Made by a program: the position numbers and the translations under genes. A model generated the notes under the pieces. It worked only from the letters and a program-made list of their open reading frames with translations. It was not told where the DNA came from and made no database searches. Shown piece after piece: positions 37,770-57,215 of a stretch of DNA of 64,000 nt (position 1 is its first letter; each line of letters starts with the position of its first letter). The stretch is from contig NZ_FOJA01000001.1 of NCBI RefSeq assembly GCF_900110535.1, forward strand, positions 806,001 to 870,000. The letters run 5' to 3'. The DNA is from Halobacterium jilantaiense. GTDB lineage: Archaea > Halobacteriota > Halobacteria > Halobacteriales > Halobacteriaceae.

Positions 37770-40700
37770 CTACAGGTCAACTGGTAGCGCGGTTTCTGGT
37801 TCGGCGACGGACCGGTTCGTCCCTTGTTGTTGGCGAACGTGGATGCGGTGGTCAGCACTGTCTATCAGGCCTTCGTCGTGGCTGACGACGATAGTTTGTT
37901 TGACGCCCGCTGTGCGCATCGCTTCGACGACATCGTTGAGGCGGTCAACGTGCCCATCGTCGAGGTGAGCCGTTGGTTCGTCGAGGATGAGGGGTGGCAT
38001 TGGGACGTCGTCTTCGAAGCCTTCAGTGAGGAGCCGGTAAATTGCGCCGCGGAGCGCGAGATTGAACACGGCGGACTCGCCGCCGGAGAGCTTGGTTGGT
38101 GGGAGTTCGCCGCCGCCCTTCTCGATGAGTGTAGCGTCGTATTCTCCATCCAGTTTGATGTCGGCATATGCGTCATTGCGGTACAGGGTGTCGAACATTT
38201 CTTGAAGTAAGTCTTCGAGCCGGTGAACGTTTTGCTCCCGCAGATCTGCTCGAAGGTTAATGAACATTTCTTCCAGCTCGGTGACTTGGTTGTTGAGCGC
38301 TTTGACGGCGGTCGCTTCGCGTTGCCGCGTGTCGCGTGTATCCCGGAGTTCGTTCAGCTTCTTGAGTTGTTGCCCAAGGTCACCGAGGTGTTCACTGACA
38401 GCACGCTCTGTGGCTCGTAAGTCCTCAAGCTCTGCATCAAGCGTGTCGAGTTCATCCGTGATTTCCGCGACAGTGTCTTCAGCTTCTTGGAGCTTCTCCG
38501 GGTTGAACGAATCAGTCGCGTCGGAGTACGCTTTAATTTCTTCTTGTAGGTCAGTGTGCGTGTCAGTGACAGCGGTCGCTTGCGTTTCGAGTTTAGTTTT
38601 GGCGAGTTCGAGATTGCGTTCGGCGTTGGTCCGTTTGTCGACTGCCGCTTCAATTTGACTCAGTACGTCTTTTCGTGCAAGGGAGCGGGTAAGGTATGCA
38701 AGAGTGCGTTCCGATGCCCGGGTGAGAACAGTCGCTGTAAGATGTTGCACGACGGCTTTGAATCGTGTTTCGTGGGCTGTGTGGCGTGCCTCTCTGGCAT
38801 CGAGGTGATGTTCAGCTGCGTCTTCGTGCAGCGGGGTGAGATCTGTATTCGGGTCGACTTGGATTGCGCTGGTGGTCGTGCCCGTTGCTGCAACGGTGAC
38901 GGTGAGCTCCTCTCCGTACAGGTCTTGGGCTGTCGCAAGGAGATTAGCTGCTTGCTCTTTTTGCTGTTCTAATTCTGTGATGCCGTCGTCAAGTGCTTCG
39001 ACCAGCTGTTCGGCGGAGTCTCGTTCGTCCTCCCATTGGTCGCGGTGTTCGACGTTTGGCGCACCGTCGACTGGACGGCCACACTCGGGACAGTTGCCCT
39101 CGTCGAGTAACTGGTCGGCTTGCTCGATTCGTTCGCCAAGTCGCGTTGCCTCATCGCGGTAGTGGTCTTGTTCTGCTTGAAGCCGCTCAATTCTGTGTTC
39201 TATGCGTTCAGCTAGAGCTTCAAGGGCAGTGTCTGGGGTCTCATCTGCGGTGGCAATGGTAAACGGTGAGTCGTCGATGTCAGCCTGCAGTTGGTCTCGC
39301 TTTTTTGCTAATTCACTGCGGCCTTGACGGATATTTGCAATGTCGGCTAGGGTTGTAGCGGCGTCATCAAGTGCTGTGTCAACTACCCGGTTGTGTTGTT
39401 GGGTATCTTGTTCGAGACGATCTGCTTCGCTGCGGGCTTCCTCCGCTGCGGTTTCAAGCGCTTGCAGTCGTTCTCGAATGTTTTTCACGAGGTCTCTGGT
39501 CTGGTCTTGGGCGTCCTCAGCGACACTCAGTTCGAGTGATTCCGGGTCTATGTCAAGACCTGGTGTCGGTACTCGAACTAACGAGACCTCGATGTCTACA
39601 GTCGGGTTAGTCAGTGGGTCAACGGCCGTTTCATCGACGGCATCCGTTGTACCAATCGTATCGCCATCGGTGTCTTCTGTCTCGCCCGTCACTGCAGGAG
39701 TTAGGGGTGCGGTTGCTGTTGGAATATCTGTCAGTATATCATCAGCTGTCGCTGCTGTTTCGTTCGCCGGCTTGTCGTTTGATTCCGGCACAAGAGAGGT
39801 TGCTATCTCACGAGGGTCAGTGTCTGGTTGTTGTAAGCTCCCATCCACTGTCGCGTCCGCTACTTCATTTTTTACGGTAGCATCAGCTTTCTCTGCCACC
39901 TCTGTGACGATGTCGTCGACAGCACCGAAGTCCGTGGTGAGATCACCGGTTCCGGCTGCAAAGAGCGAGGTCAATTCGTCTTGGTGCTGCTTGACGTTGG
40001 ACTCGGCGTTGTTGTACTCGTTTTGTAGCGATTGGTACTCGGTGACAGCACTCGCCAAGTCCTCCATGTGCGTCGCTGCAGTGTCTCTAGTTTCTTCGAC
40101 GGTCTTTCGTGCGTCTTCTTGTGCGTCGACAACCTCCTCGGCGTCTGCTTTCTCACCTTCTAGTTCCTCTATATCTGCTGTGATGGCGTCACGCCTGTCT
40201 TCGAGTGCAGATTCAAACCCGTGCAGTTGCTGTTTTCTGGACTGGATTCGGGGTTCGTTGTATTCCTCAATCTGCGTCGTGAGTTCCTGGACTTGATCTT
40301 CTTTCGTATCAGCAACGCGACCGACGCCAGTTCCGATGCTATCCATGCGAGCTCGATACCGCTCCAATTTACTCATCTGGAGCAGGTTGTCGATGATTCG
40401 CTGGCGTTGTTTCGGCGTGGCGTCGATAAGCCGAGAGACGTCACCTTGTTGGACGTACGCGCTGTTGAGGAAATCCTCAGCGTTTAACCGGAGTTCTTCT
40501 TCAATCAGATCATCGATAGCACCGATTTGGTTAAGGTCTGGTTTGCCCGGTGGCGTGGTAAGATCCGCCTCTTGATACGTGTCTCCTCGAACACGGATTT
40601 CTCGGGTGACCTCGTAGGACTCACCGCGATGGGCAAAGGACAGTGTTACTTCAGCAGTATCCTCATCGGTTGTCACCACATCGTCCATGGTGGTACCACT

Positions 40701-40862
40701 ATCTAACGCGTCACTGCCGTACAGGGCAAAGAACGCGGCTTCCAATAATGAAGATTTCCCGGACCCGTTGTTCCCATACAGGACAGTGACGCCGTCCTCG
40801 AAACGCACTGATTCGTCTGTGAAACACCGCCAGTTTTGAACGTGGATTCGTTGAAATTGCAT
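37770..40862 (-). CDS. rad50: Rad50/SbcC-like ATPase
   Basis: Protein of 1030 residues with the SMC plan: Walker A GNNGSGKSS at about 30-38, a long coiled coil, zinc hook CPEC at 591-594, a second coiled coil, then LSGGE signature and LILDEPTAHLD Walker B with VVSHDEGLID. It dimerises through the hook and opens DNA ends for the Mre11 nuclease. A long Asp/Thr-rich segment (about 330-460) interrupts the first coil, unlike usual Rad50. It lies 34 bases downstream of the Mre11 gene, one operon. Confidence 0.9.
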   Translation of the reverse strand: MQFQRIHVQNWRCFTDESVRFEDGVTVLYGNNGSGKSSLLEAAFFALYGSDALDSGTTMDDVVTTDEDTAEVTLSFAHRGESYEVTREIRVRGDTYQEADLTTPPGKPDLNQIGAIDDLIEEELRLNAEDFLNSAYVQQGDVSRLIDATPKQRQRIIDNLLQMSKLERYRARMDSIGTGVGRVADTKEDQVQELTTQIEEYNEPRIQSRKQQLHGFESALEDRRDAITADIEELEGEKADAEEVVDAQEDARKTVEETRDTAATHMEDLASAVTEYQSLQNEYNNAESNVKQHQDELTSLFAAGTGDLTTDFGAVDDIVTEVAEKADATVKNEVADATVDGSLQQPDTDPREIATSLVPESNDKPANETAATADDILTDIPTATAPLTPAVTGETEDTDGDTIGTTDAVDETAVDPLTNPTVDIEVSLVRVPTPGLDIDPESLELSVAEDAQDQTRDLVKNIRERLQALETAAEEARSEADRLEQDTQQHNRVVDTALDDAATTLADIANIRQGRSELAKKRDQLQADIDDSPFTIATADETPDTALEALAERIEHRIERLQAEQDHYRDEATRLGERIEQADQLLDEGNCPECGRPVDGAPNVEHRDQWEDERDSAEQLVEALDDGITELEQQKEQAANLLATAQDLYGEELTVTVAATGTTTSAIQVDPNTDLTPLHEDAAEHHLDAREARHTAHETRFKAVVQHLTATVLTRASERTLAYLTRSLARKDVLSQIEAAVDKRTNAERNLELAKTKLETQATAVTDTHTDLQEEIKAYSDATDSFNPEKLQEAEDTVAEITDELDTLDAELEDLRATERAVSEHLGDLGQQLKKLNELRDTRDTRQREATAVKALNNQVTELEEMFINLRADLREQNVHRLEDLLQEMFDTLYRNDAYADIKLDGEYDATLIEKGGGELPPTKLSGGESAVFNLALRGAIYRLLTEGFEDDVPMPPLILDEPTAHLDDGHVDRLNDVVEAMRTAGVKQTIVVSHDEGLIDSADHRIHVRQQQGTNRSVAEPETALPVDL

Positions 40863-40896: not shown

Positions 40897-42348
40897 TCAG
40901 TCGTTGATTTCCTCAAGTGCGTTCTCTAGGAGTTCCTCGTTATCGACTTTGTCACCACCGCCAACAGCAGTCGATACTGATTCATCTGCTGTGTCTGCCG
41001 CCTCACCCTCGCTACTGGTATCGGGAGCAGCAGATCCGTCAACGTGGAGTGCGTCGGGTGATTCGCGCTCAAGGACTGTTGTAACAGTTTCTTGGGCTTT
41101 GTCAGTGATGTTACTGTCTGCAGTTTGGTCAGTATTCATCGCCATTTCGAGGAACAGATCTGCCGTTTCTGTGATGATGATGTCTTCGCGTCGTTCTTCG
41201 ACGGCGGCATCAACATCTGCAAATTCGACCGCTTGGTAATCTCGTTCGTCCTCAAGCAGATCTCGGCGATCGCTGACTCGTGTAACCAAGGCTCCAAGTT
41301 CGGTACCTAAATTCTCGATTGGGCCGACTGGAACCCGTTCGTGGACAACACGATCAGGCGCGTCCCCGTCATCGTCAGCTTCTGGCAGTGAATCAGAAAC
41401 CGGCGGTTCCTCCTCAGCAGCCATTAGCGTCACTTTCAGCACAGAGTCATCCAGCGAGTCGACTTTCTCTCTAATTGTTTGTTCGACGGTTTCGATACCT
41501 TCCCCGCGGTGCAGTGGGACATCAACATAGACGAATTCGCGGGCGCTTTCGATGACTCGACGGTCGATGTGCTCTTCAGGATCGACAGCACCGTTGGGCG
41601 GGACTGTTACGAGCGAATATGTCCGGGGGTCGCGCTGGTCTGCCATCGTCCGCTCAGTGGAACCAGCGTAACTGAGCGGGATTCGCTTTGAGCTTGGTGA
41701 GGTCGCTGTTGCTTGGTCACCTTCAGGTGTGCTATCTGAGTCCGCTGAGTCGAAGTTGCTGTCGGGACGACCGCTACTGACGAGTCGATAATCAGCTCCA
41801 TGGTCATCGCCGACAAGCATGAGGTCAAAATCAACCGGGCTTTTTGCTAAGATTCGCTGTGTACTCCAGTCGCCGTGCCCGAATGGTTTGAATAGACCGT
41901 GGCCGACCAGGATGGCGCTGTCAGTCTCAGCAGCTTCGAAGTGATAGTCAAGTCGATCGCGCTGTCCAGGTGGGACGTGGTCTAAACCGTAAATCGTCGT
42001 ATCGGCTACTCGGGTTCCGGCCGCATCCAATCGAGTAGCTAGCCCAATCTCCTGGAGTAACTCGACCCAATTACGGTCATGTGTTCGTTCGTGATTCCCA
42101 ACGATTAGTAGAAACGGAATATCCGCGTCCTGTAGGCGTTGGAGTTCAGTTAGGACGGTTTGGAGTGGTGTGATATCAGGTCGACTAGTATGGAATAAAT
42201 CGCCGGCGTGAACAACGGCGTCAACGTCTTGCTGAATTCCAGCTGATACGACCTCTGCAAATGCTTCAGCGAAATCTCGCCGACGCTCATCCAAATGATA
42301 TTGTCGATATCCTAGATGCGTATCACTAGTATGTAGGAGCCGTACCAT
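40897..42348 (-). CDS. mre11: Mre11/SbcD-like nuclease
   Basis: Protein of 483 residues with HTSDTHLG (6-13), VVHAGDLFH, LLIVGNHERTHD and ILVGHGLF, the metal-binding motifs of the Mre11 nuclease. The last motif reads LMLVGDDHGADY instead of GHxH, so one metal ligand is changed. The C-terminal half is acidic and low-complexity, ending in a Glu-rich helix that could bind the Rad50 coil. With the Rad50 gene it forms a complete MR complex. The island pair may process invading DNA or act with the helicases and Argonaute. Confidence 0.88.
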   Translation of the reverse strand: MVRLLHTSDTHLGYRQYHLDERRRDFAEAFAEVVSAGIQQDVDAVVHAGDLFHTSRPDITPLQTVLTELQRLQDADIPFLLIVGNHERTHDRNWVELLQEIGLATRLDAAGTRVADTTIYGLDHVPPGQRDRLDYHFEAAETDSAILVGHGLFKPFGHGDWSTQRILAKSPVDFDLMLVGDDHGADYRLVSSGRPDSNFDSADSDSTPEGDQATATSPSSKRIPLSYAGSTERTMADQRDPRTYSLVTVPPNGAVDPEEHIDRRVIESAREFVYVDVPLHRGEGIETVEQTIREKVDSLDDSVLKVTLMAAEEEPPVSDSLPEADDDGDAPDRVVHERVPVGPIENLGTELGALVTRVSDRRDLLEDERDYQAVEFADVDAAVEERREDIIITETADLFLEMAMNTDQTADSNITDKAQETVTTVLERESPDALHVDGSAAPDTSSEGEAADTADESVSTAVGGGDKVDNEELLENALEEIND

Positions 42349-43942: not shown

Positions 43943-44953
43943 CTAGTATTGCGGTTCGAATGCCATGTCCTCGGCGGGGAATGAGTATTGACTGAGGTTG
44001 TTGTTTTCGCAGATGTCTTCTAGGCGCTGGGGCTGGATGTAGTCCTTGTTGAGGAGGTGTTCGAAGACGACTGATATTTCACCGCTGTCAACGGCGGTGA
44101 TGATGGCGAGGTCGGGGTTGTCGTAGTCGGGTTTGATGACGTAGTCGCCGACGGTGAACGGTTGGTCGGCGTACTCTAGGTTGGTGTGTTTGTAGTCGTA
44201 GAGATGGATTTCTTGGTCGACGCAATACGACGCTAGCTTCGCGGGGTGGATCGTCCGCCAATCGCCGGGTCCTTCGTCGAGTGTACTGGGGAACGCCACT
44301 CGAACAGCCTCGCCCTCTAGTTCTTGCCCGTAGAGTGTAGCGTTTTCTTCGGGCGGGAGGACTTCGACGACGACGCCAACTGAACTGTCCTCGTCGGTGG
44401 CTTTGATGACGCGGTCGCCGGGCTGGAAGGGGTTCTCAGGCTTCTGGTTGAGGTGGGCAGTGTTAGGACCGAGGTCGTGGAGTTCATTCATCGGTCGCGT
44501 AGCGAGGTGCGCGAGCTTTTCCGGCTCTTCTCCGGAATACGCTTCTTGGGTGTGGACTTTCGATTTGAGGGTTTCGGTGCGTTCCCAGCCGAGGAGGATG
44601 AGGGCATCTTCGTTATCGCGGTGCCAGACCATAACCAAAATGTCGTCGTCAGGGTCGTTGTCCAGGAGCTTCTCGGGTTGGAACGCGGAGACATCGCGTG
44701 AGGTCTTGACGTCAACAGTGTAGTCGAAGACCTCAAAGTCGTAGCTGGAGAAGCTCTCCGAGTTACATCGTCGGATTGCTTTCTCGTTCTTCCAGGTCCA
44801 CATTTCGACGGGGAGATATTCACGGCAGAACTGTTCGAATGCGAGTTCGCCAAGATTACCGATTCGTTTGACGTTGATATCATCAGCGCCCTGGATGACG
44901 GCTTGATGGTGGGCGCGCTCACGATCTATTTCACCGGGCGTGTAGAGATACAC
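43943..44953 (-). CDS. PD-(D/E)XK nuclease-like protein
   Basis: Protein of 336 residues starting with GTG. NLGELAFEQFCREYLP followed by SYDFEVFDYTVDVKTSRD carries the E...D...(V)DVK pattern of restriction-like nucleases (catalytic D, D and K). The C-terminal half has three beta-rich segments (GDRVIKATDEDSSVGVVVEV and GDYVIKPDYDNPDLAIITAV) like small SH3/KOW folds for binding nucleic acid. It heads the 3' part of a minus-strand cluster of nuclease genes. Confidence 0.75.
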   Translation of the reverse strand: MYLYTPGEIDRERAHHQAVIQGADDINVKRIGNLGELAFEQFCREYLPVEMWTWKNEKAIRRCNSESFSSYDFEVFDYTVDVKTSRDVSAFQPEKLLDNDPDDDILVMVWHRDNEDALILLGWERTETLKSKVHTQEAYSGEEPEKLAHLATRPMNELHDLGPNTAHLNQKPENPFQPGDRVIKATDEDSSVGVVVEVLPPEENATLYGQELEGEAVRVAFPSTLDEGPGDWRTIHPAKLASYCVDQEIHLYDYKHTNLEYADQPFTVGDYVIKPDYDNPDLAIITAVDSGEISVVFEHLLNKDYIQPQRLEDICENNNLSQYSFPAEDMAFEPQY

Positions 44954-45104: not shown

Positions 45105-47015
45105 TCAGTTCTCCCCTTGCATGAAGTCCGGCTTAATCTCTTTTAGGATGTTGTCTGATTCCTCGACCTCGTTGTCTGGGAGATAGAGTGCATTGAGACC
45201 AGATTTTTGGATGCCGGCTTGGAGGATGTCCTCGACGAATGGTCGGGAGATAGTTCGGTAGAATTGTTGCTCGCTGAGCGCGGCGATAGTTCGAGGGACG
45301 AATCGTGCGTGATGGAGGGATTCGGCTCCAATGGCGGCTTTGAGTGGGTCTGGGATGGTTTGGAGAGCGTTCGCTATGCCGTGCCAGAGGAGTTCGTTTC
45401 CGACAAGTACCGTGTTGCCGTCGCGGTGGTAGAGAATGGTCGTGTCGCCTTGGTTGTCGCACTCGTCTAGGATGGCTTGTGTGTCGATGGCATCGTAGAA
45501 GACGGCTGTGCAGGCGGCAATAGGGAGGAGGTGGAACGAGAGGGGTTTGTCAGGCAACCGATGGTGGGCGTTGAGATTTGTGACCAGTTCGGGGAATGTC
45601 CCTGGGTGGAATGGGGTTCCTGCGAGGAGTCGCTGGAGAAGTCGGTCTCGAATGTCTGGGTCGTTGATCTCGATATCCGTGATGAATCTCTGGAAGACGT
45701 CAGTTTTGAGTGCTGCTGTGGGGCCAACCGTCTCAATAGCTGTCGAGAGTGTGGCGGCGAGCTTCCGTTTTGGCTCTGGAGTGGATGATGACGGAAGGCG
45801 GAATGAGTGTGTTTCGTCACCGGTGGAAATTTCGATTTCGCGTCCGGTGTTTGGGGCTTTCTCCGAGAGTGTAATGTTGGTGGCGTAGTAGGTGTCGTAG
45901 CGGTGGTCAACGTCGAATGAGGCGGTGTCGCCGACCTCCGCGTCGTCGGGGAGCGCGTTTACGGCCATACAGACGGTGCTCTTATCTCGGGTTCTGATTC
46001 GACCGAGGTATTGGTCGGGCCGGTCAACGATAATTCCGTCAGTCTTGTTTGGTTCTTGGCCGAGAGCGGACAGAGAGGCGCGTATTTGGTCATCTAGCCA
46101 CTCTCGCTGTGGTTCCGGGAGTTTCGCTTTGACGTCGGTGATTGTCCAGCGGTCCGAGAGTGAATAGTCGTCAACGAGGTGGAGTGTCCATAGTAGGCAG
46201 GGAAGAATAGTGATCAGGTCTGTCGCTTGCTGAGTCGAGAGGTGGTGGCCGTCATGAACGACGCGTACGAGTTCGTCATTGGTGACGCGAAGGCCGAATT
46301 CGCGGTCAGTTCCCGGGGCGATGGTTACCGGCCAGTCAAAGCTGAGTGAGTCCGGACGGCAGTCTGCGAGGTTCCAGGTAACGTCGGTTGTGCTGAACGT
46401 GAAGGATGGGGAGCCGTGCTTGTTGACTTCGAAGGCCCGGGGTGTAATCGGGTGGTTGCGAACGAATTCATAGACAGAGGAATCGAACGTGGGTGGGTGA
46501 CTGCAGGCGGCGCGAAGCTCTTCTGCTTGCTCTCGGGAGACCGATTGGTCGTCGCGGAGGTCATCGAGCGCTGTGACTGTCCGCTCGGAAAGAGAATCTG
46601 AATCGGGGTTGCTATTTGGCCGGAGGGAACTGAGCTCGGATTTCAGGTCGTCGACGGCACTCGGGTTGAGTTCGTCAATGTCTGCGTGGTTTGGGGCTTC
46701 GTTTAGGATGTAATAGACGTGGTCCAAACTCTCTGAGTCGAGTTCCGGGATATCGGTATCATCGATTGGGTTGAGATCAGTTTGTTTTGCAGGATCGCCT
46801 GTGCCAGTACTCCCGGTCCAGTGGAGCCCGGCGTTGAAGAGACGTGATGTGAGTTCATTTGGAACGGCATCGCCTGGCTGGAAGCCGAGCGACCGGTAGA
46901 TCCGTGCGGTTATCGCTGGCGTTTGGAGTGGATAGGGATGAGGGGCACTCCAATTGACATTAACGTAGTAGCCTGATTTAGGATACGAGTCAGAATATTC
47001 GTGGAGGACCGGCAT
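45105..47015 (-). CDS. large unknown protein in nuclease cluster
   Basis: Protein of 636 residues with no recognised catalytic motif. The start is rich in aromatic residues (YYVNVNWSAPHPYPLQTP), a middle segment near 330-380 (YLGRIRTRDKSTVCMAVN, then GDTASFDVDHRYD) resembles a small OB/TRAM-like beta barrel, and the C-terminal quarter is helical. A short hairpin lies immediately before its ATG. The unknown lies inside a cluster of nucleases and helicases, 151 bases from the PD-(D/E)XK gene, so it could be a sensor or structural partner. Confidence 0.6.
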   Translation of the reverse strand: MPVLHEYSDSYPKSGYYVNVNWSAPHPYPLQTPAITARIYRSLGFQPGDAVPNELTSRLFNAGLHWTGSTGTGDPAKQTDLNPIDDTDIPELDSESLDHVYYILNEAPNHADIDELNPSAVDDLKSELSSLRPNSNPDSDSLSERTVTALDDLRDDQSVSREQAEELRAACSHPPTFDSSVYEFVRNHPITPRAFEVNKHGSPSFTFSTTDVTWNLADCRPDSLSFDWPVTIAPGTDREFGLRVTNDELVRVVHDGHHLSTQQATDLITILPCLLWTLHLVDDYSLSDRWTITDVKAKLPEPQREWLDDQIRASLSALGQEPNKTDGIIVDRPDQYLGRIRTRDKSTVCMAVNALPDDAEVGDTASFDVDHRYDTYYATNITLSEKAPNTGREIEISTGDETHSFRLPSSSTPEPKRKLAATLSTAIETVGPTAALKTDVFQRFITDIEINDPDIRDRLLQRLLAGTPFHPGTFPELVTNLNAHHRLPDKPLSFHLLPIAACTAVFYDAIDTQAILDECDNQGDTTILYHRDGNTVLVGNELLWHGIANALQTIPDPLKAAIGAESLHHARFVPRTIAALSEQQFYRTISRPFVEDILQAGIQKSGLNALYLPDNEVEESDNILKEIKPDFMQGEN

Positions 47016-47323: not shown

Positions 47324-48334
47324 TTACAGCTTGAATAGCGGTTCCACATCAGAGATGGCGTACCTGTATACCATCTCGTGTAAAGCTCGGTGTTCCGGGC
47401 TACCTTCTGTACTCGTGAGAAGCTTCTGGCCGAAGTACGGGATGTCGCTTCCGCTTACGGCGGAATCGTCCAGTGGGCGATCTTCGTCAAAGTTCCCGAG
47501 TTCTTTCTGGTTTCGCCGCCACTCCGTCGGATCCATGCCGTGATTATAGATATCCCAGTGTGTCTCGGGGACATCTGCGACAGATTCTAGCGAGAACCCT
47601 GGTCGCTTCAGATCTTCGTGGGTCAGTTGTCCAAACAGATCCTCCACCCGCTGAATGGTGGCTTCATCTTCCTGCGGAGCTGCTTTGCAGGCTAGTTCGG
47701 CGCGTGCTCGGATATGCCCCAAATCAAATCCGCCATTATAAGTGAGTAGTGTAGTCCCATCCCGTGTTTCTAACCATTCACAGAGTTCGTCGATGAGGTC
47801 TAATTCTGCTGCTGGTGATGAGTTTTCTCGGAAGAGGACGTCGGCTTCGACCGGAACACCCGGCGACGGTTGATAGCCAACACCGATGCACAGAAGTTCA
47901 AGATGGTTGGAGTTTGAAAGATCCAGCTCAGATTCTTTGACTGTCTGGATCGTCTCGATATCGAGCGCTACCCGACCGTCAGTCACATCGCCGGATGTAG
48001 GTTCTACGACCTCCTCTTGCTCTTTGGCACCGGAAATGAGGTCTTCAGGAGGATCGACCGGTTCGACTCGCATATCTCCGAAATTCGGACGTAATTCTTT
48101 CTGGCCTTGATAGATATTACCTGACGCGTCTTGAAACAGGAACCATTGGTTCTCGACGAAATCGTATTCTGGACTTTGGTCGAATAGCGTGATCTGGACA
48201 TCGTTTCCGTCGATATCGGTGAGAAGCACCCGTGCTCGAACGTTACTACCTTCGTGAATTGAATCTATCCGGGCGACTATACTGATTTCCTGATTCTGTT
48301 CGATGTCTGCGGCTACCGTGGTAGGTAATTCCAT
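47324..48334 (-). CDS. OB-fold plus DEDDy exonuclease
   Basis: Protein of 336 residues from the ATG at 48,334. The N-terminal 100 residues form an OB-like barrel (VARIDSIHEGSNVRARVLLT, FDQSPEYDF), followed by an RNase H-like exonuclease: VALDIETI (motif I), LLTYNGGFDLGHI (motif II) and YRYAISDVEPL (motif III, Y-x3-D). This is a DEDDy 3'-5' exonuclease related to B-family polymerase proofreading domains and to RNase_H_2 proteins. It is the second of three such exonucleases in the window. Confidence 0.8.
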   Translation of the reverse strand: MELPTTVAADIEQNQEISIVARIDSIHEGSNVRARVLLTDIDGNDVQITLFDQSPEYDFVENQWFLFQDASGNIYQGQKELRPNFGDMRVEPVDPPEDLISGAKEQEEVVEPTSGDVTDGRVALDIETIQTVKESELDLSNSNHLELLCIGVGYQPSPGVPVEADVLFRENSSPAAELDLIDELCEWLETRDGTTLLTYNGGFDLGHIRARAELACKAAPQEDEATIQRVEDLFGQLTHEDLKRPGFSLESVADVPETHWDIYNHGMDPTEWRRNQKELGNFDEDRPLDDSAVSGSDIPYFGQKLLTSTEGSPEHRALHEMVYRYAISDVEPLFKL

Positions 48335-48428: not shown

Positions 48429-51185
48429 TCAGGAGTAGAAGACGACGGGGCGACGGTCGCCTCCGTGTTCGTCGTCGGGGATGTGTTCTGCGAGGTCGCC
48501 GCGGGTATCGTCGCCGAGGAGTTGGTTGAGGACGTCGATGGCTGAGGCGCGGAGGAGAGGTTTGTTGTCGTTGCCGCAGTGTTCGTCGAAGGTGCAGGCG
48601 GGGCAGCCGTTGGGTTGGCCGCAGTGGCAGTCGCGGAGTTGGTCGCGGGCGCGTTCGGCGAGGGCTTCGAAGTTATTGTAGATGGCGTGGGCGAAGCCGA
48701 GCCCGCCGTCGACGCCGTCGTAGATGAACCACCCGGAGGAGCGGGTGCCGTCGAGTTCGTGGGTGCGTTGTTCGATGGCGTTGGTGGCGGCTTGGAAGGA
48801 TTCGTTGAGTGTGTCGGTGATGTCGTCGTAGTCGGGGTGGCTGTAGTGCGTGTCCATGACGAGTGTGGCGAGGCCACCGAGGTCGTTTTTGTCGACGCGG
48901 AGTTCCAGTGGAGCGGTCTGAATGGTTGCGTGTTCGGCGGCGTGGAGACCGGCGATGTAGCCGAGGTGGGCCATGCCGGCGGTTTCTGGATCGACACCGG
49001 TTTCGACGCCGTAGTCCTGGTATTTGTGGATGAGTGCGGTTTCGATGGTGTCGGGGACTTCAACCCAGCAGAGCTGGGTGTCCATGAGGATTGGTGGGAC
49101 GTCTGTGGGGAGGGCTTGGGTTTTGGGTTGGCTGCTCTCGATGTACATCTGGTCGTAGGCGTGGTGATGGACGAGGACGGTGCCGCGGCCGAAATGGAGT
49201 GTGAATCCGTTGATGTCTCGTGTCTTTTCGGTGTCTGCGTCGAGGACGTTGACTTTGCTTCGTGTTCGGGTGTAGTAGTCGCGGTCGACGGGTTCGAGTT
49301 CGATGATTGGTTGTGGGCGGTCCTCGTTGATGGCGGTGACTTCGAACTGTTGACCGTTCAGCAGGCGGACTGCGCCTTCGTGGTAGTCGCGGTAGGCGCG
49401 GTTCTGTTCGACGGATTCTAAGTCGAGGCCATCGCCGAGCCCCCAGCCAGTGGGATCGACATTGTCGGCAAGTTTGAACTGGTAGTCGGTGTCGCTGGTT
49501 CCGTAGAGGTTGACCCGCGTTTGCGGGCGGCTGGGACCGGCGTAATGGGCGGCGGCATCCAGATACCCTTCGATGTAGCCGGCTTCGCGCCACATCTGGA
49601 CGGCGTTCCGGAGTCGCTCTTCGCTGGCGAAGGCGTCGCTGTCTGTTTCGTCGAGGGCGATTTCGTCGGCGGCGGCGAGGACGTGAGTGGCGAATACGGC
49701 GTTGTTCGAGGTGTCGATAACGGCATTTTCGACGTCGTTCTCTAGGAGGTAGTCGGGATTGTTGATGATGTATTGGTCGATGGTGCGGTGGTCGCCGACG
49801 AGGACGGCGAGGCTGCGACTGGCTTCGCGGCCGGCCCGACCGATGCGCTGCCAGAACGCTTGCCGTTGCCCGGGATACCCCATGAGGACGGTGGCATCGA
49901 GTGACCCGATGTCGATGCCCAGCTCAAGGGCGTTTGTAGTGGCGAGCCCGGTGAGTGCGCCGGCTTTGAATTCGTGTTCGCGGCTGTGGCGGGTGTGACG
50001 GCCGAGGCCGGCATTGTATGCTTCGATGGAGGGTGTTTTCGACGTGTCGTAGTCGCTGGTGTTTGCTTGGCGGTGTTTGTTGGTGCGTTGGACGCTGAGT
50101 TCGGTGAGTTTCCGGCTCGGGCAGAACAGGAGCGTGCGAATGTCGTTGGCGGTGAGGTGACTGAATATTCGCGGTGCTTCGATGCTTGCCGGCACTCGCT
50201 CTGCGACAAACGTCTCAGCTTCGTCGTTGTCCGTCTCCTCGGCGGCGTCTGTGTCACTGGTTGTGGAGTCTTCGTCGGGGAATTCGACGACGTCTTTGTG
50301 GGGGTCTGCTGCTTGTGTTTGGTCGCGTGGCGGGGGGTTCCAGAGGATGATGTCTCGGGGGCCATGTGGAGAGCCGTCGTCATCGATGACGGTGACGGGC
50401 TGATTGATGAGTTCTTGGGAGTGGGCGTGGGGGTTGCCGATGGTGGCGGAGGTGAGGACGTACTGTGGGGTGCTGCCCCAGTAGTCGGCGACGCGCTGCA
50501 TGCGGCGGAGAATCCACGCGACGTGCATACCTTCGATGCCTGTGTAGGTGTGTGATTCGTCGATGGCGACGAGGTCAAGTGCGCTGTAAAAGCGACTCCA
50601 CTTGTCGTGGTGTTCGAGGTAGACGTTGAGGCCCGCGAAGTTCGTGAGGATCACGTCGGCTTCCTCCCGAATTGCCCGTCGGTCGCCTGTTGTGTCGCCG
50701 TCGTAGATGCGGACGCGGATGTCCAGTCCGAGGTCGTCGTAGAGGTCGTTGAGGGCTTGCTTCTGGTCTTTCGTCAGCGCTTTCATTGGGTACACGCACA
50801 GCGCTGTCGAGGCGTTGTTCTGTTCGGCTGCCCGCGAACCATCCGGGTTGAGAACGCCCGCATCGAGGAGATTCCGCGCGATTTGGAGGGCGTAGATGTG
50901 GGTTTTCCCGCTGGATGTTGAGGTCGTGACCGTCACATTCTCACCGTCGGCGAGTGCGGTGAGGGCTTCGGCTTGATGGCTGAACAGCTCGAATGGGTAC
51001 TGATCGGCGAGTGTCGCCCGTAGTACTGAGTCTGTTGGGGTGGTGTTGGCTGGTCGTGCTGGGCGTTCAATCGTTTGGATGAACTCGGAGTCCGCGGAGA
51101 GGCTCTGGCGGGGGAAACTGTTGATGACTGTATCGGCGTCGACTACTGTGTCGTCTGGGTGGTGGGAGTGGTTGGTGTCTGTCAT
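48429..51185 (-). CDS. DEAD-box helicase with DUF1998/MZB domain (MrfA-like)
   Basis: Protein of 918 residues. The helicase core has TSTSSGKTHIYAL as Walker A, AIDESHTYTG as the DEAH-type box and a C-domain with GYPGQRQAFWQRIGRAGR. The C-terminal part carries CHCGQPNGCPACTFDEHC, the four-cysteine site of DUF1998 helicases such as Bacillus subtilis MrfA, a 3'-5' helicase of mitomycin repair; DrmA/DrmB of DISARM are related. It is 2 bases behind the exonuclease gene, so the two form an operon. The likely role is unwinding or pumping DNA for an exonuclease. Confidence 0.87.
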   Translation of the reverse strand: MTDTNHSHHPDDTVVDADTVINSFPRQSLSADSEFIQTIERPARPANTTPTDSVLRATLADQYPFELFSHQAEALTALADGENVTVTTSTSSGKTHIYALQIARNLLDAGVLNPDGSRAAEQNNASTALCVYPMKALTKDQKQALNDLYDDLGLDIRVRIYDGDTTGDRRAIREEADVILTNFAGLNVYLEHHDKWSRFYSALDLVAIDESHTYTGIEGMHVAWILRRMQRVADYWGSTPQYVLTSATIGNPHAHSQELINQPVTVIDDDGSPHGPRDIILWNPPPRDQTQAADPHKDVVEFPDEDSTTSDTDAAEETDNDEAETFVAERVPASIEAPRIFSHLTANDIRTLLFCPSRKLTELSVQRTNKHRQANTSDYDTSKTPSIEAYNAGLGRHTRHSREHEFKAGALTGLATTNALELGIDIGSLDATVLMGYPGQRQAFWQRIGRAGREASRSLAVLVGDHRTIDQYIINNPDYLLENDVENAVIDTSNNAVFATHVLAAADEIALDETDSDAFASEERLRNAVQMWREAGYIEGYLDAAAHYAGPSRPQTRVNLYGTSDTDYQFKLADNVDPTGWGLGDGLDLESVEQNRAYRDYHEGAVRLLNGQQFEVTAINEDRPQPIIELEPVDRDYYTRTRSKVNVLDADTEKTRDINGFTLHFGRGTVLVHHHAYDQMYIESSQPKTQALPTDVPPILMDTQLCWVEVPDTIETALIHKYQDYGVETGVDPETAGMAHLGYIAGLHAAEHATIQTAPLELRVDKNDLGGLATLVMDTHYSHPDYDDITDTLNESFQAATNAIEQRTHELDGTRSSGWFIYDGVDGGLGFAHAIYNNFEALAERARDQLRDCHCGQPNGCPACTFDEHCGNDNKPLLRASAIDVLNQLLGDDTRGDLAEHIPDDEHGGDRRPVVFYS

Positions 51186-51187
51186 GG

Positions 51188-52711
51188 TTAGAAGTCGGTG
51201 AGGCCGGCTTGTTGGCCTGTGGCTCCCTGGGAGCCGCTGTCAGTCATGTCACGGCGCGGTGCGTCTGTGAGTGCTTGATAGACGTGCCAGAGTGCTTCAC
51301 AGTCATCTCGACAGTATGTCTTGTGGCGGTCCCAGTCTGGCTCACTCTTGGGATTGTCTGGGTTCCGCATGAACTCTTGGTAGGCAGCGGCCGTTTGCGC
51401 GCCGGTGAGGCCTGTTTCGGTGGGGTCGTATCCGAGGGCGCGTGCGACGTGCCCGAGTTTGTTCGTGCGACCAGGGAGGAGCGCGTTTCCGTCTCGGACA
51501 GCCCACTTGTAGAGATCGTACGTCCACATTTCGTCCCACGCGTCGGTGTATTCTGGATGGTGTTGTTTGAGGAACTGTTCGATATGCTGGTAGTCGAAGT
51601 TGTGGCCGTTCCACGTGAGGAGTGATCGGTTGCTATGGTTGGCGAGCAGCCATGTGGTGAACGCTTCTAAGACGCTTGCCGGGTCCCGGGGGTCGTTTGT
51701 TTCGACGAAGGCTTGGTAGGTGTCTGTCGCGGGGTCGTAGATGCCGAATTGCCAGATGATCGTGGGCGAGAGTCCATCCGTTTCGATGTCCAGGCAGAGT
51801 GGTGGACGGTCGTCACGGGTCTTGACTGGTGTCCGATTCGAGACTACGAGCGGGTTGCCTGAGGCAATGACTTCGGCGTGGGCGTGAATCTGTTCGGCCG
51901 TCTGCTGGCCGATCCCGGGGAGGTCGGCCAACTTGCTTACCGAGAGATCGCGGACATCTTCTGTCGTCCGACACCCTACGTTGCGGAGTCGTTGGGCGGT
52001 GGCTGGTCCCACACCGTTCAGGGCTGTGAGACCGAATGATTCGGTGTCGACTGCTTCTGCGGCAACCGTTCCATGAGCTGTACAGGAGTATCGAGCGAGT
52101 TTCGACTGGGCTTGGTCAATTGCACCAAGCCCAGTAATCGGTACGGTTACTGCTGATCCGTTGTGGGAGAGGTCCCACTCGTGGTAGTACTCTGTCGGCT
52201 GGCCACCTGCGAGAACGGTTACCGGCTCGGGAAGGAGTGCGCTGATGGCGGCGATTTCCTTGCGGTTTGGGAGTGTTGTCGAAAGTGTCGTCGGGTCCCA
52301 GTCTACCGATAGTTGCGGAACAAACAGGTACGTCGCTGCCTCGCTGCCAGTCTGGCGGGTGCCCGACTCGATTTCCGACTTGAGGTATTGGAGGGTGGTT
52401 TGATTTTGGACAGCAAGGATGTCGATAGTGGGATTGGGTGATGGTGAGTCTGTGACCTCGTGGAGGCCGGCATCAGAGGTGTATTGGAAGTGCTGAATGT
52501 GATTGCCGTCCCGGCCAAGCTTTGGATATGTAAACGGAGTCTCTGTAGTGGCTTCTTGGATCGCTGCGAGGGCGTTTGGATCCCGTGGGCCAGGGATTGT
52601 GATGAAATCTGGCGCGAAATACTGGAGAGCGTCCTGGATTGCAGGTTGAGGGACACGTTCAAGCGCGGGCGCAGGGAATGTCAGTAAATCCAGAGAGGTG
52701 TCAAGCGCCAT
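51188..52711 (-). CDS. RNase H-like exonuclease with helix-hairpin-helix domain (MrfB-like)
   Basis: Protein of 507 residues. The first 220 residues are unfamiliar. Two helix-hairpin-helix motifs follow (LNGVGPATAQRLRN and LPGIGQQTAEQIHA, about 230-280) that bind DNA without sequence preference. The C-terminal exonuclease has LDIETDGLSP (motif I), NGHNFDYQHIEQF (motif II) and YCRDDCEAL (motif III), the DEDDy pattern of YprB/MrfB. The gene starts at the ATG at 52,711 next to an A/T-rich box at about -30 and precedes the helicase gene by 2 bases. MrfA and MrfB form such a pair in bacteria. Confidence 0.85.
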   Translation of the reverse strand: MALDTSLDLLTFPAPALERVPQPAIQDALQYFAPDFITIPGPRDPNALAAIQEATTETPFTYPKLGRDGNHIQHFQYTSDAGLHEVTDSPSPNPTIDILAVQNQTTLQYLKSEIESGTRQTGSEAATYLFVPQLSVDWDPTTLSTTLPNRKEIAAISALLPEPVTVLAGGQPTEYYHEWDLSHNGSAVTVPITGLGAIDQAQSKLARYSCTAHGTVAAEAVDTESFGLTALNGVGPATAQRLRNVGCRTTEDVRDLSVSKLADLPGIGQQTAEQIHAHAEVIASGNPLVVSNRTPVKTRDDRPPLCLDIETDGLSPTIIWQFGIYDPATDTYQAFVETNDPRDPASVLEAFTTWLLANHSNRSLLTWNGHNFDYQHIEQFLKQHHPEYTDAWDEMWTYDLYKWAVRDGNALLPGRTNKLGHVARALGYDPTETGLTGAQTAAAYQEFMRNPDNPKSEPDWDRHKTYCRDDCEALWHVYQALTDAPRRDMTDSGSQGATGQQAGLTDF

Positions 52712-52891: not shown

Positions 52892-52926
52892 CAGACCGCA
52901 TAACGTCGGTCTGCCAAACTTTATAC
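52892..52926 (+). promoter_or_regulatory. Argonaute promoter with inverted repeat
   Basis: TTTATA (52,920-52,925) lies 26-31 bases before the ATG of the Argonaute gene, as for a leaderless mRNA. Directly upstream is a perfect 7-bp inverted repeat, CAGACCG (52,892-52,898) and CGGTCTG (52,907-52,913) with an 8-base spacer, a likely regulator site or activator-type element. The 239-base divergent region also drives the exonuclease-helicase operon. Confidence 0.5.
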
Positions 52927-52950: not shown

Positions 52951-55179
52951 ATGAGCGAGGTGCCCTCTACGGATCCGTTATCCCAACAGTCGAGTGCTGA
53001 ACCCGGGACATATCTTCTTAACGCATATTCTAGGAGCCAACTGAATGATGTTTCAGTTACGCAGTATCGGCTAAATGTTGATGGTGGTGTAAGTGGTGAT
53101 AGGACGGCATTTACTGCCTCCGCTGCCTATTCGTTGGATCAAGAGCATGGGACACCTGTATCAACAGCGGGTACGATGAGGGTTCTCTCTGCAACGAGTC
53201 TCTCTCATACAGTCTATGTCTGGGGTCAGCGTGTCGAGGTGGTTGAAGAGAAGAAAATCACGCTCAATCCCGAGAACCCACGGGAACGAGAAACACTTCG
53301 AGACTTCGTACAATCGTGCCTCCGACGAGCAGTCCCGGACGAAAAATACGATTACAAGTTCATCAATGAGATCGTTCGGAGGGAGCCGGAGTTTACGTCA
53401 AAGAAATTTGCTGCTCACCCCAAATATGAACTCAGTATCCAGATTACGAACTCCGGTACTGTTCTGGCTCATGTTGAGTCTGGATACACTCTTCGAAGCA
53501 GAATGACCCTTGATGAGCTGTATACTAAGTCAGAAAATCCGCGGGGTATGAAAGCAGCCCACGACCCTGAAAGATATTCGAGGGAAGGGCAGGGATGGCT
53601 CCGCGGCTGGAGTGATTTACACTATAACGATCTCATTGAGGATGCTGGTGCCTCGATCGCAGAGATGCATGAAGGAGTAGCCGATGAGGAGTGGCGTCAA
53701 AAGCTGATACAGGAAAACCCCAGACTACTCAAAATCAAGTACGGGAGTAACATCCGCAATCAAGCTCCTCATTTCCTCAAGTTAGCACCTCGAATTGAAC
53801 AGGTCAAGGACGAGGACTACGACTTTTTCCAGCGGTTCATGTCTCGCCGTTCGATGATGCCCGGCGAGAAGTTCGAATACACAAAAGAGTTCATAGAGAA
53901 CCTCTCGTGGCTACCGGTGCTGGAATTAGAATTTGAACCCGGGCCAACCAACGACGGATATGACCGAATAGACATTAGGGGGACTCGGGACCGGTTAATC
54001 TTCCAGAATAGTACACCAGCAAACAATCCTTCTACGGGATTACGGCAAAGCGGAGTGTATCAGTCCCCCGGACAGTATCGCATCGGCGTTCTAGTGCCAG
54101 AGGCATGGGACGACATACAGCAGGAGTTCCCCGGACTAATCACAAAAGGGTTAGCTGAGATACAGGCACCAGGCGGTGTCACAAAGTACGAATACGAATT
54201 AGGAGACATCTCAAACTATACGCCCATCGCTCATCGACTCCACGATGAGACGGAAGTCGTCGTAGCAGTCGTACCCGATGAGGGAGCGTCGGAACAATTT
54301 GGCATTGAAGACCCGCATCATGAGGTCAAACGGACCCTGATGCGGCAAGGCGTTCCAACACAGATGACGACAAAATCCACGGTGGATGAGCTCATCAAGC
54401 TGGGCGCTGATATCGGAAACGATAAAATGTTGAATATTCTGAGCGCCGTGGTCGGCAAGGCTGGTGGAACTCCTTGGCACATTCACAATCTGCCAGGCGA
54501 GACCGACGCATTCATGGGATTAGACGTATCTCATGACCAGTCTTCTGGCAAGCATACTGGCGCGAGTGCGAGTGTTGTACTATCTGACGGGACAACGTAT
54601 GCCGCCGAATCCACGGTCGGTCAAAGTGGAGAGGAATTCTCGGCAGAGCACGTCCAACAGTTCGTTCGGGATCTCGTCTTTGACTTTGCGATGGACCAAG
54701 GTACAGAGATTAATCGACTCTGCATAATGCGTGATGGAAAAGTCCCAGAGGATATCGACGCGATCCAAGACGGGCTTAGAGGAGTATCTGCAGAGATTGA
54801 TATTGTGGGTGTACGGAAAAGTGGCCAACCCCGGGTTGCGGAGTATGATGGCACGCACTTCCAGGTTGCAGAGAAAGGGATCGCGTTCGTCTCAGATAAG
54901 CAAGGATATGCGATAGTCCATGGATCTGGCAAGCCCGAGATTAAAGATGACAACAGCGTGGGAACCCCTCAGACCTACCGAATCACCCAACACTCTGGTC
55001 CAACGGATATAGAGACTCTTGCTCGACAAGCATACTGGCTGTCCGAGGTCCACATCGGTAGTCCAGTCCGAAGCCCGCGGCTTCCGATTCCAATCGAATA
55101 TGCTGACAAAGCAGCCGGCTATGTGAGTGATGAGATTGTTTCTCCCGGGACTGTTATAAAAGGCCCCGCGTACATTTAG
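52951..55179 (+). CDS. ago: long prokaryotic Argonaute, catalytic tetrad present
   Basis: Protein of 742 residues, with an N domain at the start, PAZ-like and MID regions in the middle, and a PIWI domain. The PIWI shows the DEDD tetrad: D525 (GLDVSHD), glutamate-finger candidate E561 (GQSGEEFSAE), D595 (MRDGK) and D719 (EYADKAAGYV), so slicing is expected. The end resembles Natronobacterium gregoryi Argonaute but lacks its N-terminal extra domain of about 150 residues. Argonautes use short DNA or RNA guides to cut invading DNA. It diverges from the exonuclease-helicase operon, which could supply guides or degrade targets. Confidence 0.92.
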   Translation: MSEVPSTDPLSQQSSAEPGTYLLNAYSRSQLNDVSVTQYRLNVDGGVSGDRTAFTASAAYSLDQEHGTPVSTAGTMRVLSATSLSHTVYVWGQRVEVVEEKKITLNPENPRERETLRDFVQSCLRRAVPDEKYDYKFINEIVRREPEFTSKKFAAHPKYELSIQITNSGTVLAHVESGYTLRSRMTLDELYTKSENPRGMKAAHDPERYSREGQGWLRGWSDLHYNDLIEDAGASIAEMHEGVADEEWRQKLIQENPRLLKIKYGSNIRNQAPHFLKLAPRIEQVKDEDYDFFQRFMSRRSMMPGEKFEYTKEFIENLSWLPVLELEFEPGPTNDGYDRIDIRGTRDRLIFQNSTPANNPSTGLRQSGVYQSPGQYRIGVLVPEAWDDIQQEFPGLITKGLAEIQAPGGVTKYEYELGDISNYTPIAHRLHDETEVVVAVVPDEGASEQFGIEDPHHEVKRTLMRQGVPTQMTTKSTVDELIKLGADIGNDKMLNILSAVVGKAGGTPWHIHNLPGETDAFMGLDVSHDQSSGKHTGASASVVLSDGTTYAAESTVGQSGEEFSAEHVQQFVRDLVFDFAMDQGTEINRLCIMRDGKVPEDIDAIQDGLRGVSAEIDIVGVRKSGQPRVAEYDGTHFQVAEKGIAFVSDKQGYAIVHGSGKPEIKDDNSVGTPQTYRITQHSGPTDIETLARQAYWLSEVHIGSPVRSPRLPIPIEYADKAAGYVSDEIVSPGTVIKGPAYI

Positions 55180-55547: not shown

Positions 55548-56543
55548 ATGAGCCCTTCTCCTGCAGACTGGGACGACTTTGAGCAGGAGGAGGAACTCCG
55601 GACTGACGTTCATCTAGCTATTGACTTGGCTCTCGATAGCATTCTCGATAATCGTGGAAGGGAGATTACTGCTGTTGAGGAGGAAAAGCTGACTTTCTTT
55701 GCGATACGGGACCTGAACATCGACCTAAGTTACAGTTGGTATCTTGCTGGTGGGAATACGGAGGTTGGCCCAACCCCTACACCTGACACCAGCTACACTC
55801 CGGGGCAACAGTTCGGGACGATTCAGCAAGATACTCCAACTACAGATCGCCTGACACGGTTGCGGAATTATTTCCGGAATGAGACCTTCTTTGGGGACTA
55901 CAATCTTGCTAAGGTTTGGTATACGGACCGATATACCTTCCTTCGAGACTATTACAGCAAGTTCGCGCCTGAAGAATACACGGACCTTTACATCACCTCA
56001 GTCAACATCCGAGAGAAGCTTACAAACTTGGACAACCTGATTGCTACAGAGTCCCAGAATGCTACTCTCGGTGATTTTGGGGGAGGTGGGTCAAACAGTC
56101 TTCTGGAATCTGCAGACGAGCGTGAAATCCGATATCTCATCTCGGATTTTCATATGGATTTGACAGCGACCGATGAGTTATCCCAGACGAAGCAAGTCGT
56201 ATCTGCAGGAACTGATTTGATTGAACAGGTGCTGTTCAAACTAACCCAAATAGAGGGAACCACTCGGGAGCAGCGCCGTCTCCTCAATAATCTCTCTGAG
56301 CTTTTCTTCTATTACATATGGAAGTACCCTGCGCTCCTAATTTCCGCAGACACGGCGACTGGGCCAAACGAGGACATTATTCGACTCAATCGGCTACAGG
56401 AGTTCGAGAGGTTCAACCAACAGGTGGAATCAGAGATTTCCAGACTAACTGATCACTTCTATGAGGTGGGGCTCCTCCCCAATGCACAAGATATCGAGGC
56501 TATCGATATGGATTCTGAAAACAATATCATTTATCCCGAGTGA
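55548..56543 (+). CDS. hypothetical helical protein
   Basis: Protein of 331 residues, acidic and mostly helical, with aromatic clusters (RYTFLRDYYSKFAPEEYTDL) and a C-terminal segment LFFYYIWKYPALLISAD that may pack inside the protein or touch a membrane. No family was recognised. It is 18 bases ahead of the PIN-domain gene, so the two are probably one operon. The size is larger than a typical antitoxin. Confidence 0.6.
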   Translation: MSPSPADWDDFEQEEELRTDVHLAIDLALDSILDNRGREITAVEEEKLTFFAIRDLNIDLSYSWYLAGGNTEVGPTPTPDTSYTPGQQFGTIQQDTPTTDRLTRLRNYFRNETFFGDYNLAKVWYTDRYTFLRDYYSKFAPEEYTDLYITSVNIREKLTNLDNLIATESQNATLGDFGGGGSNSLLESADEREIRYLISDFHMDLTATDELSQTKQVVSAGTDLIEQVLFKLTQIEGTTREQRRLLNNLSELFFYYIWKYPALLISADTATGPNEDIIRLNRLQEFERFNQQVESEISRLTDHFYEVGLLPNAQDIEAIDMDSENNIIYPE

Positions 56544-56561
56544 TGTAGATATCCGAAATTA

Positions 56562-57215
56562 ATGAGTTCCAATGGGGATGCCAACTTTGACACCTCCGTT
56601 CTCGTAAACTACGTCTATACAAAGCTCCCCGGTACAAATGAAGACGACAACGATGCGGTCCGATTACTCGAAGACTCAGGGTTGAATCGTGTAATCGGTG
56701 GAAAGGCGAAAGGAGAGTTCACAAGTCTCTGTGATCGGCGGGAGGTAATCTATGACGATTTGCTGGACTGGCTGGAAGACCACCCGGAGTCCAATATTTA
56801 CGAATACGACGTTTCATCGCGTCCAGTTAGTGCCTCAGACAACGATACGGACCACGTTCGGTTTGACATTCAATGCGGATGGGGGGAAGAGCCTCGACGG
56901 AAACAACTCTCCGACTTTCGCCGGCTGTCCCAAGGATTGGACACGATTCGTCGAGATATCATTCGGAAGTTCCTAGACGGTATCTACCCCCAGTTCTCGA
57001 ACTCGGAGTTATCAGAGGAACTCGGAGATCTCGACTTAGGTCACGATACCCAGATAGTAATCGATGCAGTAGAGATTCACCGTGAGGATTCGATTGACCT
57101 CCTTGTTGGGTCAGATAATGACCTCACGAGCAACGATACAGCAATCAACAATCGGATTAGCTCAGTAGAAGATCAAAGCCTTGAGCTTCGGATTCTGGAA
57201 CCCAGCGACGTGTAA
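56562..57215 (+). CDS. PIN-domain protein (possible ribonuclease)
   Basis: Protein of 217 residues. It begins FDTSVLVNYVYTKLPGTN, typical of PIN (VapC-type) nucleases with the first catalytic Asp, then GGKAKGEFTSLCDRRE with a Glu, and near the C-terminus DTQIVIDAVEIHRED and GSDNDLTSNDTAINNRI with further acids. PIN domains cut single-stranded RNA using metal ions. As the second gene after a hypothetical protein it could be a toxin part, but no small antitoxin is present. Confidence 0.7.
   Translation: MSSNGDANFDTSVLVNYVYTKLPGTNEDDNDAVRLLEDSGLNRVIGGKAKGEFTSLCDRREVIYDDLLDWLEDHPESNIYEYDVSSRPVSASDNDTDHVRFDIQCGWGEEPRRKQLSDFRRLSQGLDTIRRDIIRKFLDGIYPQFSNSELSEELGDLDLGHDTQIVIDAVEIHREDSIDLLVGSDNDLTSNDTAINNRISSVEDQSLELRILEPSDV

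Follow-up and report, generated by a model that had tools for sequence, protein, structure and literature searches.

An OB-less Argonaute of Halobacterium jilantaiense beside one of several exchangeable DNA-end-processing modules, with the OB domain encoded on a neighbouring exonuclease

Introduction

The haloarchaeal system APAP, described from Natrinema pellirubrum, joins a prokaryotic Argonaute (pAgo) to the PLD protein AgaP; according to the accessible portion of its description it is found in 28 of 63 species that possess an Argonaute, some of them with a helicase gene nearby (Cheng et al., PMC11442185). A RepA domain is reported for NgAgo and the OB-fold pAgos in the available part of PMC10908814. 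Eight OB-fold pAgos, together with UvrD and PDDEXK proteins encoded in pAgo operons, figure in the accessible sections of Ryazansky et al. (PMC6299218), and nuclease and defence genes as neighbours of pAgos in those of Makarova et al. (PMC2743648).

The source of the DNA guides used by prokaryotic Argonautes is an open question. For E. coli, functional work has tied RecBCD-type machines to it: as far as the available text of PMC10269773 goes, RecBCD shapes the guides that pAgos bind and is not required for making them. In the main texts of the open literature that we searched, neither Mre11-Rad50-HerA-NurA nor MrfAB nor end-processing modules that replace one another are reported beside haloarchaeal Argonautes. 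Here we describe an Argonaute locus within a stretch of 64,000 nucleotides from Halobacterium jilantaiense (the window) and compare it with the Argonaute loci of other haloarchaea.

Results

The Argonaute gene and the element that precedes it are as follows.

52951 to 55179, forward strand: Argonaute gene (ago) of the long-A type, 742 aa from its ATG, recognised by Pfam, PADLOC, phmmer, alignment and an AlphaFold2 model
52920 to 52925, forward strand: TTTATA, a TATA-like promoter element read by eye, 26-31 bp before the ATG of ago

The open reading frame encodes a complete long-A-type prokaryotic Argonaute. Piwi is its sole Pfam domain (residues 454-726, E=7e-15), the PADLOC pAgo model PDLC02388 covers residues 12-742 with 1065 bits, and phmmer against solved structures places CpAgo and CbAgo at the top (E ~1e-30). 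That the architecture is the full-length N-PAZ-MID-PIWI is seen from the fold: an AlphaFold2 model built on a 20-row alignment (pLDDT 82.6, pTM 0.80) has CpAgo as its best structural match (9jh8; Z 32.1, 695 of 742 residues, ~20% identity), followed by CbAgo (6qzk, Z 30.5), KmAgo, human AGO1/2 and TtAgo. A search of the genome (2.95 Mb, 2 contigs) with the protein itself as query gave no second Argonaute match at E <= 0.001. The position of TTTATA probably fits a leaderless haloarchaeal transcript of ago.

The initial annotation held that all four catalytic PIWI positions could be placed, and proposed alignment to long-A tetrads as a check. The alignment bears this out: D525, E561, D595 and D719 are present, are invariant in all 20 aligned haloarchaeal Argonautes, and stand opposite the D, E, D and D of CpAgo in the phmmer alignment. 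The CbAgo chain 6qzk has alanine in the columns of D525 and D595, which we take to be the catalytic double mutant of that protein. The geometry of E561 belongs to a low-confidence region of the model, the glutamate-finger loop just before it (558-560) having a pLDDT <50. The MID motif for the guide 5′-end is Y/H-K-Q-K, and the window Argonaute has H456, K460, Q471 and K503 at these positions; across the 20 haloarchaeal proteins K460 and Q471 are conserved in 20, K503 in 15, and position 456 is Y, H or F. A hydrophobic C-terminus of similar kind is common to all 20. In its sequence the protein looks like a slicer, and guide-directed slicing is predicted.

The same annotation had noted that the extra N-terminal domain of NgAgo is missing, and this too stands: the 742 aa begin at the N domain, and no OB/RepA domain was found at the N-terminus in either the 20-row alignment or the upstream frame, which remains open for just 38 more codons. 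The absence is common to a whole clade. Of the 391 genomes sampled from the class, 53 have an Argonaute match (E <= 1e-10); the nearest group comprises ten of these 53 loci, including the window, and its other nine Argonautes are 44-63% identical and without an N-terminal extension. A sister set, ~33% identical, carries an additional N-terminal domain of ~100 aa. Halarchaeum acidiphilum, found by a named scan, has an Argonaute 91% identical to that of the window, and a plasmid search adds Haloglomus halophilum to the OB-less proteins. In the tree the OB-less clade has a support of 100/100 over 12 rows (L152 and L162 dropped as too short, L071 absent, L056 represented by its C-terminal 504 aa only); some forks within it are weaker, and the programme flags long branches, several of them in the clade. 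Types A to D were assigned by best tblastn match, type A being the OB-less clade; the tree divides type B into two groups. In the H. acidiphilum draft the Argonaute lies in two overlapping frames (L056:9881-12228), owing to a frameshift or a sequencing error.

Upstream of ago, on the opposite strand, lie three genes.

51188 to 52711, reverse strand: MrfB/YprB-like exonuclease, 507 aa, HhH and RNase_H_2 (DEDD) domains, with D308, E310, D373, Y466 and D470 present
48429 to 51185, reverse strand: MrfA/YprA-like SF2 helicase, 918 aa, with DEAD, Helicase_C and MZB zinc domains
47324 to 48334, reverse strand: OB-exonuclease, 336 aa from the ATG at 48334, an RPA/Teb1-like OB domain followed by a DEDDy exonuclease

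The first two form the divergent exonuclease-helicase operon already recognised in the initial annotation, ~240 bp from the start of ago; with a DEAD-MZB helicase and a DEDD exonuclease in one operon, it belongs with MrfAB. The third gene went unmentioned there. Its product has no meaningful Pfam match, yet its model (pLDDT 84.4) shows a beta barrel and then an exonuclease fold, and five residues (D124, E126, D203, Y324 and D328, numbered without the start Met) are invariant in 11 of 11 homologues. Foldseek matches it to Teb1 OB-B, to the OB of MM0293 and to family-B polymerases, which contain an exonuclease domain of the same kind. The identity of the OB domain came from three comparisons: in tblastn against Argonaute loci the OB-exonuclease matches the N-terminal domain of OB-bearing Argonautes; the profiles of the Argonaute OB domain and of the OB-exonuclease find each other with E values between 1e-13 and 1e-26; and hhalign aligns the two over 95 columns at 24% identity, with a probability of 99.8%. 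The domain missing from the Argonaute is thus encoded in the adjacent operon – in trans, and fused to a DEDDy exonuclease with intact catalytic residues.

A second issue is how far this domain is specific to Argonautes. Full-length relatives of the OB-exonuclease stand directly divergent from an OB-bearing ago in two Halosimplex genomes (L057, L063), and at L115 (genome G150) Argonaute, exonuclease, helicase and OB-exonuclease follow one another on a single strand. The idea of a partner dedicated to Argonaute is weakened by full-length homologues at loci without one (L116-L128), and the idea that OB-less Argonautes always lie near an OB gene was rejected: among the fetched clade-A stretches, the window alone has such a gene. 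The domain is also present in a 1596 aa protein encoded on the second contig of the window genome (L170). Housekeeping RPA is not a favoured explanation of the match, given that in the window genome the Argonaute OB profile finds the OB-exonuclease at 2.7e-14. Of the 12 genomes searched with this profile, 10 have one weak chromosomal place each (E ~1e-4 to 3e-3), which we infer to be RPA itself. Neither OB profile matches the N-terminal domain of two type-C Argonautes. In haloarchaeal nuclease systems the OB domain is a portable component, and it is not a signature of Argonaute.

Two further observations concern this domain. At L169:1492-2514 and L171:1301-2371 (both forward strand) it is fused to a Mre11-like phosphoesterase. 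At L123-L128 (for example L125:2179-15980) a conserved multi-gene locus, with no Argonaute in the fetched stretch, combines two MrfA-like helicases and a MrfB-like exonuclease with a divergent OB-exonuclease and two further proteins, of 1155 and 715 aa; it looks like an undescribed defence locus.

Relatives of the window Argonaute have end-processing modules of more than one kind. A module is found nearby in 11 of 13 clade-A loci: MrfAB-like in the window, L031, L032 and L164 (where the exonuclease is known from annotation alone); AddAB-like at L033, L034, L035, L036 and L039, with a Mre11/Rad50-like pair besides at L035; and Mre11-Rad50-NurA-HerA at L056, the H. acidiphilum locus, whose draft sequence has HerA and Argonaute each in two frames and one HerA piece without a Pfam match. 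L037 has Rad50-NurA-HerA, and a Mre11 match lies 8.6 kb from its Argonaute, just outside the fetched stretch. The two loci without a module, L038 and L071, lie on truncated contigs, either 7.3 kb in total or ending ~0.6 kb past the gene. The arrangements at L031 and L032 are near-identical and not independent. Each module occurs in two or three separate places of the Argonaute tree. The clearest case of exchange is that between the window and L056, where Argonautes of 91% identity stand beside different modules.

De novo clustering of proteins encoded within 10 kb of Argonaute at the 53 loci extended this picture. Two clusters occur mainly with OB-bearing Argonautes, a PLD protein of 706 aa at 27 loci and an AAA/DUF4143 protein of 559 aa at 24; an AddA-like protein (UvrD + PDDEXK_1) is present in 22 of the 53 neighbourhoods, and Rad50-like proteins in 14, MrfA-like in 11, MrfB-like in 9, NurA in 7, HerA in 7 and AddB-like PDDEXK proteins in 5. 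Four type-C loci have Argonaute and a MrfB-like exonuclease on the same strand, 81-94 bp apart. All 15 loci of types C, C2 and D (L047-L050, L115, L129, L130 and L151 among them) have a DUF2797 protein of ~300 aa near Argonaute, at a median distance of 43 bp.

As a control we used a second kind of defence gene, McrC, with 23 genes in the same genomes (one of them within the window), in tests that treat genomes as unrelated. The Mre11 profile finds 120 places in the 53 Argonaute genomes; a Mre11 lies <=15 kb from Argonaute in 25 of 53 cases versus one of 23 for McrC (Fisher p=1.4e-4), the uniform expectation being ~1. For any of Mre11, AddB or MrfB-like exonuclease, among the matches listed, the counts are 33/53 versus 4/23 (p=3e-4), and 32/52 versus 3/21 (p=2.2e-4) when the window genome is removed. 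Taken singly, neither AddB (7/53 versus 2/23, p=0.45) nor, among the matches listed, the MrfB-like exonuclease (9/53 versus 1/23, p=0.13) is enriched over McrC, although both exceed the uniform expectation of 0.2-0.3; the AddB list omits small fragments and joins two pieces in genome G124, and the MrfB-like list consists of the matches listed, by which the counts are lowered or blurred at most. AddB occurs in 87 and the MrfB-like exonuclease in 154 of 391 haloarchaeal genomes, mostly without an Argonaute nearby. No module is dedicated to Argonaute.

The window Argonaute sits in a long, low-GC accessory island, which also encodes an Eco57I-type methyltransferase, a SNF2/PLD helicase, an HNH protein, McrBC, a PDDEXK_4 nuclease and a Mre11-Rad50 cluster.

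40897 to 42348, reverse strand: Mre11-like phosphoesterase of 483 aa, separated from ago by 10.6 kb that include other genes
37770 to 40862, reverse strand: Rad50/SbcC-like ATPase, 1030 aa, with Walker A motif GNNGSGKS and a CPEC zinc-hook motif
36277 to 37593, forward strand: second Mre11-like metallophosphatase, 438 aa, in the same cluster, its link to Argonaute uncertain

The G+C content of ~68% falls to 50-64% past ~8 kb and stays low (8000-64000). Two genes at 55548-57215 (331 and 217 aa) recur near the clade-A Argonautes of Haloferax elongans (L031), H. denitrificans (L032) and Halarchaeum acidiphilum (L056). Searches of PADLOC, NCBIfam and, above cut-off, Pfam assigned them to no family, and a methyltransferase-like gene lies alongside at L031 and L032; they were left out of the module. 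Pfam, NCBIfam and domain searches returned no named function for 45105-47015 or 43943-44953. The 133 kb second contig of the window genome carries an AddAB-like pair (L172:5566-12752), the AddB of which is 62% identical to that beside the Haloprofundus Argonaute; an AddAB-like machine could therefore act in trans.

Discussion

We propose a coupling between the predicted slicer and a DNA-end-resection module, which would supply guides, finish off targets, or both; we give this coupling about an even chance. The helicase and nucleases would open and trim the ends of foreign or broken DNA, and the resulting short single strands would be loaded into Argonaute as 5′-phosphorylated guides. Argonaute would then slice matching DNA, exposing new ends, from which the module would degrade it. 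The OB domain – in cis in sister Argonautes, here on an exonuclease – would act on single-stranded DNA at the hand-over. In the window the module would comprise the divergent operon of (putatively 3′-5′) exonuclease, helicase and OB-exonuclease, with the Mre11-Rad50 pair 10.6 kb away. Argonaute and module would be physically coupled, material would flow from module to Argonaute and back, and the purpose would presumably be defence. As to DNA ends as the source of guides, a parallel may be seen in the effect of RecBCD on the small DNAs of E. coli pAgos. The initial annotation had suggested that the operon could process guides or targets; that suggestion now has behind it end-processing neighbours that recur, and that are exchanged among close relatives, while the mechanism itself is still conjectural.

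The proposal can be widened, and here we are more tentative, thinking it possible rather than probable: haloarchaeal Argonautes may be the sequence-specific half of a two-part surveillance of DNA ends, served by a plug-in resection machine and a portable OB hand-over part. The same portable OB domain is found on Argonaute, on DEDDy exonuclease and on Mre11-type phosphoesterase.

A further account, which we consider plausible while doubting that it is correct, has a long-A Argonaute standing alone in a defence island, with guides that it makes or scavenges and with neighbouring nucleases that are independent defences. Unrelated systems do gather in such islands, and McrBC, an Eco57I-type methyltransferase, a SNF2/PLD helicase and a PDDEXK_4 nuclease are all neighbours in the window; moreover AddB and the MrfB-like exonuclease are common without an Argonaute nearby, and neither singly is enriched over McrC. 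This account has difficulty, however, with the frequency of Mre11 near Argonaute as compared to McrC (25/53 against 1/23), with the short intergenic distances and shared-strand operons seen in several lineages, and with the presence beside close relatives of three modules that have a single biochemical theme. A repair unit – the MrfAB-like operon mending lesions and Argonaute helping to finish replication or resolve ends, roles reportedly proposed for TtAgo and for SeAgo/LrAgo – is improbable at a locus that is accessory (Argonaute in 53/391 genomes, relatives on plasmids, a low-GC island), even if the closest named relatives of the operon are the mitomycin-repair proteins MrfAB (Pfam names MZB 'MrfA Zn-binding') and pAgos aid the division of E. 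coli under gyrase inhibition (PMC10269773).

The proposed coupling of slicer and resection module bears directly on the guide-source question. End-processing machines are here linked to Argonaute genetically, repeatedly and interchangeably, and in genetically tractable archaea, so that the question becomes testable by deleting and swapping modules. Attention is also drawn to haloarchaeal Argonautes beyond the APAP type.

Comparison with known systems makes clear where the locus is familiar and where it departs. In its full-length fold, DEDD tetrad and length of ~750 aa the protein is like the Clostridium long-A pAgos CbAgo and CpAgo (6qzk, 9jh8), from which it differs in sequence (~20% identity over the structure). 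With APAP, as set out in the accessible portion of PMC11442185, it shares a haloarchaeal long-A pAgo, an intact tetrad and an auxiliary nuclease alongside; the N. pellirubrum Argonaute (L042), however, carries an OB domain that the window protein lacks, and no member of the PLD cluster, to which AgaP would belong, lies within 10 kb of the window ago, though the clade-A relative L037 has a PLD neighbour. NgAgo and the OB-fold pAgos are likewise long-A with an OB domain in the locus, but there the domain is in cis, whereas in the window it sits on a separate exonuclease. MrfAB (YprAB), as described in the available part of PMC12458937 – a text in which the words 'Argonaute' and 'pAgo' are absent – resembles the operon in its DEAD + MZB helicase adjoining a DEDD exonuclease; the window has in addition the OB-exonuclease gene and an Argonaute alongside. 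The protein thus adds to the known long-A Argonautes, and what is new is the arrangement of the modules.
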